From: Mariprofundus ferrooxydans PV-1 | GTDB lineage: Bacteria; Pseudomonadota; Zetaproteobacteria; Mariprofundales; Mariprofundaceae | Direction: 5' to 3' | Assembly (NCBI RefSeq): GCF_000153765.1 | Contig: NZ_DS022294.1 | Span: 376,150-440,149, forward strand | DNA: 64,000 nt | Program-made: the position numbers and the translations under genes | Part shown: positions 56,838-60,605 of the stretch, one piece after another | How positions within the stretch are numbered: position 1 is the first letter of the stretch | Layout of the letters: each line of letters begins with the position of its first letter | The notes under the pieces: model-generated | The model's database searches: none | What the model was told of the DNA's origin: nothing | What the model saw: only the letters and a program-made list of their open reading frames with translations

Positions 56838-57035
56838 TCAGGCGTTGGACTGCAGATGCTTGGCCATAAGGGTCAAGTTACCCAGGTCGACGACCTGACT
56901 ATGTTTTGCGCCTGCACGCTTGAGAACGAATGTGTTACCGCCACGGTGTGCCACTTCGGTTTTCCTGCGAACATCCGTGCCGAATTTCTTTTCGACTGCA
57001 TTCAGATATGTATTGATTGCTTCGTGAATTGCCAT
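56838..57035 (-). CDS. Small conserved-looking protein, 65 aa
   Basis: ATG at 57035 behind a perfect AGGAGG. The protein starts MAIHEAINTYLNAVEKKFGT, has a basic block (DVRRKTEVAHRGGNTFVLKR), and ends with DLGNLTLMAKHLQSN. Mixed alpha-beta, no signal or membrane segment, pI likely basic. Good ribosome site and an own terminator mark it as a real, monocistronic gene. No family recognised. It diverges from the giant POTRA-like protein, with a CRP-type site between them. Confidence 0.7.
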   Translation of the reverse strand: MAIHEAINTYLNAVEKKFGTDVRRKTEVAHRGGNTFVLKRAGAKHSQVVDLGNLTLMAKHLQSNA

Positions 57036-57154
57036 AGTAGCCTCCTGTGCTGATCTTGTAGCGATATTCTGCACACCAGGCGTTATAACTCGATTAGAGC
57101 GACATTAGAATTTATTTATAAACACATAAAAAACCCTTAATTTTCGGCATTTTG

Positions 57155-57329: not shown

Positions 57330-60300
57330 ATGCGACACTACGGAACGAAAAAACTACTGATCACGATTTTATGCCTGATCGCTCCTACTCTGGCATCGGC
57401 AGACTCGACACCACCCCCTCCAACCAGCTGGCTGGAACAGGGGTGGCAGCTGATGGAAAGAAATCACCGTGAGGAGGCTCTGCATGCCTGGCAGAATGGT
57501 GTTAACAACCTCCCCGATACGCAGCTACTGGGCTCACTCGGGCTCTTTTTCGATTTCGCAAACGCTCTGGAACAACTGCAGCTTGCCGGCAAACAGGAGC
57601 AGGCCTTTATCATTCGCGATGCGCATCAGCATGGGTCATTCATTGTACTAACTGCTCAGAAAGTCGCCCGAGACATCAACCTCCGCCAGATACAGATGGC
57701 ATCATTAAAGGAAACGCTCGGCATCCGTGGTAAGCTGCTCGCCAATAATGCGGAAAAATTCAAAATACCTGTCCCGCACGGCACAATTTCAGTGACCAAA
57801 ACAATCTCAACAAAACAGCAGTCTCAGGCAACCATCAAACCGGAGGCTACTGCAGCGATCACATCTGCACGGCAGAAGGCAGCATCCGAAGCTGTTAAAC
57901 AAAAGGAAAATAGTACGGCGCTCGCACTGACGGCTCAGGCGGCAACAGAGCTAGCTGCGATGAAACGGGAGGCGCAGGCAGAAGCCGCAACAATACAACA
58001 GCGAGCTAGGGCCGCGGCATTGAAGGTCACGCAACAGGCCAAAGTCGACGCAGACGCCATTCATCAAAAAGCACAAAACGATGTGGCGGCCTTCATCGCA
58101 GAGCAAAAAGCCCGCGCTGGAGCAGAAGCTGCTACTATCAAACAGCAGGCCCAAACCGAGGCTGCAACAATCAAACTGCAGGCTCAGGCAGATGCTGATG
58201 CCTTGCAGCAGACTGCTGCAACAAAGACAGCGGTAGCGAAAAACGCAGTGATAGCAAATGCCCGGCTGGCTGAACAGGCCGGCCATGAAGCTGCTGCGAT
58301 AAAGCGCAAAGCACAGACTGAGGCTGCTGCAGTAAAGCAGCAAGCAGTAGCTGACGTCGCAACAATACAACAGCAGGCCAGAACCGAGTCTTTGAAGATC
58401 ACGCAACAGGCAAAGCTCGATGCAAAGACTATTCACCAAAAGGCACAAAACGATGCATCAGCTTTCATCGCAGCACAAAAAAACCGCTCTGAAGCAGAAG
58501 CCGCTGCCATCAAACAGCAGGCATTGGCTGAAGCCTCTGCTACAGCCAATGCCTTAAAGGGCCGGGCGCTCACTGAGATCGCTGCAATGAAACAGCAAGC
58601 AGAGTTGGAGGCTGCTTCTATCAGGCAGACAGCTCAGGCCGAGGCAAAAGAGAGTGCCGGCCATGTGCATGCTCAGGCCATATCTGAAGCCGCCGCCATA
58701 AGGCAAAACGCCATAGCCGATGCCGAAGCGTCACTTAAAAAGCTGCGGAAAGAGGCAAATGCGGACATCTCTACAATAATGCAAAAGGCCAAAGATGATG
58801 CAGCGGCCGTCAGGCAACAGGCTGAAACTGAAGCAGCCTCGATCCGCGTACAGGCCGAAACGGCTGCGGCAAAGTTGAAGCAGCAGAGTAAAACTGAAGC
58901 GGCAGCCATGCTGGCACAGGCAGCAAAGTCACGCAGAGCCTCGGCCGGAAAAGCCCTGCAGCAGGCAGAGCGCACTGCAACCGGGCTGACGGAAAAAGCC
59001 AGCAGCGAAGCTGCTGCCATCAAAAAACAGGCAGAGGCTGAAGCTGCCTCGATCCGTACACAGGCTAAGGCCGAGGCCGCCGCTATTAAACAGCAGACAG
59101 CCGCCGAAGTCGCAGCCATACAGCAGCAGGCACAGATACAGGCACAGAACATCCGGAAACAGGCTGAAAGCGACGCTGCCGCCTTCACCCGGAAGGCTCA
59201 GGCTGAAGCAGACACACAGGCTGCAACGGCACAGACAAAAGCAGTACATGACGCTGAAATAACAGCCGAAGGGATAGCAGAACAGGCCAGAAGGGAGGCT
59301 GAGAATATCCTGCAGCAGGCCAGAGCTGATGCCGATGCCATGCGGCAGAAGGCAGCCAGTGAAGCGCAGTCCGATGCAAAAGAAGCTGCGACTCAACGGG
59401 CACAGGCTGAGACCGAGCATTTGAGTGCCATCAGGTTGAAAAACGACGCCATGGCTCAAGCATCTGATATGATAAAAAAGGCCCGGACTGAAGCGGCAGA
59501 GTCGATCAGGAGGCTGACGACCCAGGCAGAAGCAGACATCGCTGTTATGCGTCAAAACGCTGAAGCTAAATCCGAAGCCATAACAGTCAATGCGCGGGCA
59601 AAAGCAACAGAAGAAGCAGCCGCCATCAGAGCGAAAGCTGAGATAGAGGCGGCCTCAATCAGGCGACGGGCCAAGGTAGATGCACTGGCTTCAACCATCA
59701 AAATGATGCATCAAACCAAAACACAAATGGCCAGCACAGCTACTGCTGATACAGCTAAAAAGTCCAAAGCCCCCCCTGCTATGAAACAGGCTGTGATGGC
59801 GGAGGCTGCAGGTTACGGGAAGCAGCTCGACATGCAGACGACATCTGCACAAAATAGTACTACTCCGGATACAGGTACCAGAACTGCTGAGGCCCATGCT
59901 GCAACAAAAACAACCACAGAAATTGAATCAGACGTAAAACTTGCCAGAGCATCCCCATCTGAATGGATTCACGATGGTTGGCAGTACAGTGAACAGCAGG
60001 ATTATGAAGATGCTCTTGATGCCTGGCAACGCGGGCTCAACGACATGCCCGACACACAATTACTTGCTACACTTGGCGCATTCTCCATGCTTGATAATGC
60101 GATTGACCTTCTTCAACAGGTCGGGAACAATCAGAATGCATTTATTGTTCTATCCAACATGAACGGTCGGAATATCTATTATGTACTCTCCGCCCGAGAG
60201 GTACCTTCTGATATGCACGAACGCCAGATCAAACTGGCATCATTGAAAAAAGCCGCCGGCATTTCGGGGCTGCTGCTAGCCTGCGAAAGCGTGAAATTCA

Positions 60301-60605
60301 AATCCAGACAAACAGCAGCAAAACGCACGGCGCCCTATATGCTGACCGCCAGCGATCCCCCATCATTTACCATCAATCGATTTGATCTGAGCGGCAACAA
60401 ACTGCTCTCTACCGATTTTATCCTGATCAACCTCAGAGCCTATTATGGCAACGGCAGAACCCAGTCTGACATCAAAAAGATCAAGCAGGATATCATTAAT
60501 CTGTACCATATGTCCGGCTACTCCAGAGTAAAGGTGGACCTTGTTCAGCTGGCAAAGGATGAAAGCATCGCCATTCAAATTGATGAAAAACGGGGTGGAA
60601 CCTGA
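57330..60605 (+). CDS. Giant exported coiled-coil protein with duplicated end domain and C-terminal POTRA-like domain
   Basis: 1091 residues. A signal peptide (KKLLITILCLIAPTLASA) is followed by domain D1 (about 30-150: SWLEQGWQLMERNHREEALH, LPDTQLLGSLGLF, RQIQMASLKETLGIRGKLLA). A copy, D2, lies at about 876-990 (SEWIHDGWQYSEQQDYEDAL, MPDTQLLATLGAF, RQIKLASLKKAAGISGLLLA). Each pairs a TPR-like helix pair with a SPOR-like alpha-beta segment. Between them, about residues 175-790 are an Ala-rich helix of 11-residue repeats such as EAAAIKQQAQT. The last 80 residues (TINRFDLSGNKLLSTDFILI; YHMSGYSRVKVDLVQLAKDE) look like a POTRA domain, but no beta-barrel follows. Likely periplasmic, perhaps spanning a wide distance. 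Transcribed alone from a sigma-54 promoter. No family is recognised for the whole. Confidence 0.75.
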   Translation: MRHYGTKKLLITILCLIAPTLASADSTPPPPTSWLEQGWQLMERNHREEALHAWQNGVNNLPDTQLLGSLGLFFDFANALEQLQLAGKQEQAFIIRDAHQHGSFIVLTAQKVARDINLRQIQMASLKETLGIRGKLLANNAEKFKIPVPHGTISVTKTISTKQQSQATIKPEATAAITSARQKAASEAVKQKENSTALALTAQAATELAAMKREAQAEAATIQQRARAAALKVTQQAKVDADAIHQKAQNDVAAFIAEQKARAGAEAATIKQQAQTEAATIKLQAQADADALQQTAATKTAVAKNAVIANARLAEQAGHEAAAIKRKAQTEAAAVKQQAVADVATIQQQARTESLKITQQAKLDAKTIHQKAQNDASAFIAAQKNRSEAEAAAIKQQALAEASATANALKGRALTEIAAMKQQAELEAASIRQTAQAEAKESAGHVHAQAISEAAAIRQNAIADAEASLKKLRKEANADISTIMQKAKDDAAAVRQQAETEAASIRVQAETAAAKLKQQSKTEAAAMLAQAAKSRRASAGKALQQAERTATGLTEKASSEAAAIKKQAEAEAASIRTQAKAEAAAIKQQTAAEVAAIQQQAQIQAQNIRKQAESDAAAFTRKAQAEADTQAATAQTKAVHDAEITAEGIAEQARREAENILQQARADADAMRQKAASEAQSDAKEAATQRAQAETEHLSAIRLKNDAMAQASDMIKKARTEAAESIRRLTTQAEADIAVMRQNAEAKSEAITVNARAKATEEAAAIRAKAEIEAASIRRRAKVDALASTIKMMHQTKTQMASTATADTAKKSKAPPAMKQAVMAEAAGYGKQLDMQTTSAQNSTTPDTGTRTAEAHAATKTTTEIESDVKLARASPSEWIHDGWQYSEQQDYEDALDAWQRGLNDMPDTQLLATLGAFSMLDNAIDLLQQVGNNQNAFIVLSNMNGRNIYYVLSAREVPSDMHERQIKLASLKKAAGISGLLLACESVKFKSRQTAAKRTAPYMLTASDPPSFTINRFDLSGNKLLSTDFILINLRAYYGNGRTQSDIKKIKQDIINLYHMSGYSRVKVDLVQLAKDESIAIQIDEKRGGT

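Follow-up and report, generated by a model that had tools for sequence, protein, structure and literature searches.

A window of 64,000 nucleotides of DNA from the marine iron oxidiser Mariprofundus ferrooxydans PV-1 (the whole stretch analysed here) encodes a giant protein in which two copies of one module, termed D, stand at the ends of a very long Ala-rich helix, and a POTRA domain without a beta-barrel forms the C-terminus (Table 1). The analysis confirmed this D1-helix-D2-POTRA architecture and found it conserved; it seems not to have been described before, and we infer from it a role in the cell envelope. The parts are of known kinds (POTRA, SPOR-like, TPR and hendecad helix); within the open-licence literature searched, what is apparently new is their combination and a free-standing POTRA terminating a giant helix. 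That literature yielded no paper on SPOR-POTRA fusions or barrel-less POTRA proteins and no described protein of such domain order, in keeping with what the sequence-only reading had supposed. POTRA domains are nearly always interpreted as leading into a barrel; this family retains one, without the barrel, at the tip of a helix predicted to be several times the width of the periplasm. Translation of the window gave 1091 aa for the ORF at 57330-60605 (+), the coordinates at which it had first been noted.

Table 1. Features of the giant protein and their positions in the window
Feature	Residues	Positions in window	Strand	Basis
N-terminal export signal	1-25	57330..57404	+	Probable cleavage after ASA; translation inspected by eye
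Module D1, predicted TPR-like hairpin and SPOR-like fold	31-146	57420..57767	+	HMM; 45% identity to D2; family alignment
Ala-rich hendecad helical spacer	147-875 (729 residues)	57768..59954	+	Autocorrelation at 11 and 22; 29% Ala
Module D2, same predicted fold as D1	876-992	59955..60305	+	AF2 pLDDT 93; Foldseek to SPOR domains
C-terminal POTRA, no beta-barrel behind	1009-1091	60354..60602	+	Pfam POTRA_2 24.1 bits; AF2; Foldseek 2mhj, TM over target 0.73, probability 1.00

The protein is probably exported by Sec, judging from an N-terminus that on inspection resembles a cleavable signal (putative signal peptide KKLLITILCLIAPTLASA/DS, with an ASA/DS junction). The duplication of the terminal module, as originally claimed, lies far above background: the identity between D1 and D2 extends over 116 residues (BLASTP E = 1e-34), and their Smith-Waterman score of 258 exceeded all 2000 shuffles (mean 28, maximum 53). 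Module D, of approximately 115 aa, was modelled by AF2 from 29 family members (pLDDT 93) as a TPR-like helical hairpin followed by a b-a-b-b-a-b fold. The duplicated module had been rightly anticipated, and its predicted TPR plus SPOR-like identity goes beyond that claim.

The best high-probability Foldseek matches to D were SPOR domains: RlpA (0.97 and 0.91; TM 0.70-0.71 over target), CwlC (0.94) and DamX (0.77), to which the model of D2 plus POTRA added the SPOR domain of DedD (0.99). The E-values of these matches are weak (0.02-0.6), so the SPOR case rests on several SPOR domains concurring and on a matching profile register, which was seen when D was aligned by hhalign with Mariprofundus SPOR profiles (P = 0.00067, probability 27%). 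On these models a divergent SPOR is the best description of D. Pfam SPOR (PF05036) missed the module, with one of 29 members matched at E = 0.17. RlpA holds glycan by Q270 and an arginine patch that includes R309 and R311 (PMC6895207), and the D residues aligned to these three positions are T/S/V, Y and L, respectively. These contacts are not retained, which makes it doubtful that D binds septal glycan in the canonical way; D appears to have the SPOR fold and to lack the canonical ligand site. Its C-terminal part therefore resembles RlpA, DamX, DedD and FtsN in modelled topology, whereas the fused TPR hairpin, the diverged ligand residues, a score under the Pfam SPOR cut-off and the presence of two copies at the coil ends set it apart. 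In the TPR half, TPR_2 scored 23 bits against a cut-off of 27, with one TPR-like hairpin per D in place of a tandem array. The D profile matched consensus TPRs in PDB sequences over residues 3-32, plus a few weak chance matches; the whole protein had no match in PDB by sequence, and the Pfam and NCBIfam searches run missed module D.

The claim that the last 80 residues are of POTRA type was borne out by three lines of evidence. Pfam POTRA_2 (PF08479) matched residues 1013-1072 marginally, its 24.1 bits just clearing the cut-off of 24, with higher scores in relatives (33.3 bits in L046 and 36.2 bits in L047). An AF2 model of D2 plus POTRA, built with 15 sequences (pLDDT 84), showed POTRA topology (b-a-a-b-b), and Foldseek matched the modelled domain to the POTRAs of CdiB, YaeT/BamA and TpsB4 (the last being 2mhj in Table 1). 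The absence of a barrel was likewise confirmed: the reading frame stops just after the last POTRA strand, with a CDGSH/ferredoxin gene starting about 110 bases beyond that stop. The C-terminal barrel that marks Omp85/TpsB proteins is missing from the window protein and its close relatives, and within the D-POTRA relatives a barrel follows the POTRA in L047 only. The sequence-only reading had allowed that homologues might reveal a barrel lost here by mutation; close homologues share the barrel-less end, and barrel-less relatives across the genus stop at the same POTRA residue in the family alignment, so no recent mutation removed a barrel here. Judged from this alignment, barrel-lessness is the normal state in the close family. 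A second barrel-less POTRA design was seen in the genus at L060 (7859-9379) and L061 (5940-7448), where exported-looking proteins of approximately 500 aa carry two POTRA-like stretches and an Ala/Pro/Lys-rich linker. Beside the BamA-type gene, much of the stretch L109 (G000:C3 1048000-1066000) consists of N, so the open-frame lengths given there are not real.

The very long Ala-rich helix with 11-residue repeats described from the sequence was also upheld. Hydrophobic autocorrelation in the spacer reached 0.32 at 11 residues and 0.25 at 22, and the Fourier peak lay at a period of 3.685 (power 13.2 versus a shuffled maximum of 12.0), in agreement with a hendecad (11/3 = 3.67). At the DNA level, the spacer features diverged repeats spaced 33 nt, as well as an internal repeat of 206 nt whose copies lie 372 nt apart. 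Stretches without Pro reach 643 residues, but those lacking Pro and Gly alike reach only 166; the helix may therefore be interrupted in places, and its length would be ∼109 nm at most, if it formed a single straight helix. Autocorrelation at 11 persists in the other four long forms (0.13-0.28), among which the Fourier peak rises above the shuffled maximum in G002 only. The five spacers comprise 729 (window), 1379, 1631, 472 and 398 residues, giving predicted helices of up to 60-245 nm. Across the family the spacer can be nearly absent or as long as 1631 residues, which speaks against a ruler of fixed length, and the helix is best read as a spacer of relaxed length.

The long form occurs in five Mariprofundus genomes (that of the window, G001, G002, G009 and G015). 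Short D-D-POTRA relatives are found as a 410 aa paralogue in the same genome (L012) and in G002 and G009, and D-POTRA relatives in G006, G016, G019 and G020; the functional unit is best read as D-POTRA. In a tree of D modules, several deep branches of which are weakly supported, long-form D1s cluster together with single-D forms and long-form D2s cluster with short-form D2s, so the two-copy layout probably predates the long spacers. The ends of the protein are under purifying selection (dN/dS 0.04-0.20, counted where synonymous change was unsaturated). In a contig search a narrower D profile returned six loci, and a search of viral contigs found no relatives.

Searching for the duplicated module in other genomes, as had been suggested, thus found relatives, but their conserved neighbours gave no functional clue. 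The short forms and the G001 and G015 long forms adjoin htpG and, contig permitting, sucAB, while at a second locus the long forms of the window, G002 and G009 are flanked by pirin and CDGSH-ferredoxin genes, with a histidine-kinase gene also nearby. No conserved neighbour coding for an envelope partner was found at either locus, and with two unrelated loci the gene neighbourhood is uninformative on function. A small ORF at 56838-57074 (-) without a Pfam match is conserved in G009, and G002 has two copies of it, one on either side of the giant gene.

The best functional clue is the recurrence of D on trans-envelope machines. D was found in 17 of the 78 genomes of the order, and a 398-genome sample of the phylum gave no match outside Zetaproteobacteria. 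In a second genus of the family, D forms the N-terminus of PgaA-type porins, one with adjoining PgaB/PgaC-type genes (L104, 4547-7786) and one that resembles it by sequence (L105, 6983-10240). D is also fused to a CotH protein in a stalk-type cluster (L054), to a TcpQ-like protein with an adjoining secretin (L107), and lies on TPR proteins (L057, and L106, which also adjoins a secretin). In G004, a TpsB-like protein (L047, 2759-5323) has the order D-D-POTRA-ShlB barrel, which makes the connection to two-partner-secretion transporters a real one at the domain level. The product of the gene directly downstream, a possible partner of L047, is small, Ala/Asn/Gly-rich and exported-looking. The predicted TPR-SPOR hybrid is thus confined to Zetaproteobacteria among the genomes searched and turns up repeatedly on export machines of the polysaccharide, two-partner and pilus types; naming it would aid envelope annotation of iron-oxidising bacteria and offers a testable link from wall to outer membrane.

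Wall-binding modules stand N-terminal on other outer-membrane machines, such as LysM on intimin and AMIN on secretins. D is likewise N-terminal on PgaA and ShlB relatives, although its sequence family is unrelated and the window protein lacks the machine, a barrel, itself. A tether role at the envelope is plausible. The suggested comparison with TolA was weakened: both proteins share a very long, exported Ala/Lys/Glu/Gln-rich helix, but the ends of the window protein are SPOR-like and POTRA modules, TolA domain III is absent from its C-terminus with the POTRA in its place (Pfam, AF2 and Foldseek), and an inner-membrane anchor is not evident on inspection.

Our tentative proposal, held with a little less than even confidence, is that the protein is exported to serve as a periplasmic scaffold, attached to the wall at either end of the helix, with its POTRA docking an outer-membrane partner. 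The D modules, one per helix end, would hold the cell wall or wall-bound partners, and the long right-handed hendecad helix would lie along the sacculus, not across the periplasm. The C-terminal POTRA could dock an outer-membrane barrel, or the substrate of one, by strand pairing. BamA is the sole strong POTRA protein detected elsewhere in the genome: outside the D-POTRA family, all five strong POTRA profile matches fall in a BamA-type gene. We infer this orientation, together with the wall association and the POTRA partner. The periplasm is a few tens of nm wide at most, so with the same wall-type module at both ends of a ∼100 nm helix, too long to fit across it, an along-wall geometry is simpler. 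The SPOR-like fold of D with its modest profile support, the place of D as the N-terminal part of outer-membrane and trans-envelope machines, the POTRA fold, the C-terminal end common to the barrel-less relatives, the purifying selection and the conserved ends that flank spacers of 398-1631 residues count for the scaffold, while the lost glycan contacts, the missed Pfam SPOR match and the lack of an envelope-partner neighbour count against it. A more elaborate version, which we consider unlikely, is a periplasmic girder of 60-245 nm helices along the wall, with SPOR-like clamps at both ends, a free POTRA positioning an outer-membrane partner and a length set by per-species repeat expansion.

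The strand augmentation established for Omp85/TpsB POTRAs, the TPR half of D and the presence of D on PgaA and TpsB exporters would also suit a soluble, chaperone-like helper of outer-membrane export or assembly, in which the POTRA and TPR/SPOR-like modules would keep hold of unfolded chains or of partner chains, with an oligomeric coil giving reach, rather than a wall tether. This helper role is rather unlikely, as no substrate or exporter gene is adjacent and a search that matched G004 as a positive case found no recognisable ShlB transporter in the M. ferrooxydans PV-1 genome. A periplasmic or surface filament, in which hendecad helices would bundle as a long fibre with D modules as caps, would make use of the predicted helix lengths in the long forms, and Ala-rich right-handed hendecads are a typical feature of long coiled-coil stalks. 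Such a fibre nevertheless seems quite improbable given that length varies four-fold among long forms, coil-less relatives retain D and POTRA, and no outer-membrane exporter for it was recognised.

Descent from an FhaC-like TpsB transporter that lost its barrel and kept a residual function or none is brought to mind by the ShlB-type POTRA and by L047, which adds the ShlB barrel to D-D-POTRA. The window protein differs from TpsB, FhaC and ShlB in having no barrel, a single POTRA and no recognised TpsA gene nearby, and the remnant idea is largely refuted and very unlikely: barrel-less is the common state, and relatives in that state share their POTRA end residue genus-wide and are under purifying selection. 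Least probable is a dedicated part in twisted-stalk formation. It draws on one genome (G021), in which a stalk-type cluster (L054, 3523-16747) follows the gene order of the sfz stalk cluster (PMC8250860) and carries CotH fused to D in the sfz6 position; the published Sfz6 is SH3 plus CotH (PMC8250860). However, 19 of 23 Mariprofundus genomes have sfz2 homologues, and several of these 19 have no D protein. The long protein thus does not track the stalk cluster, and a dedicated stalk role is unsupported. Shorter CotH proteins, with frames of 675-692 aa, are encoded in G007, G011, G019 and G020.
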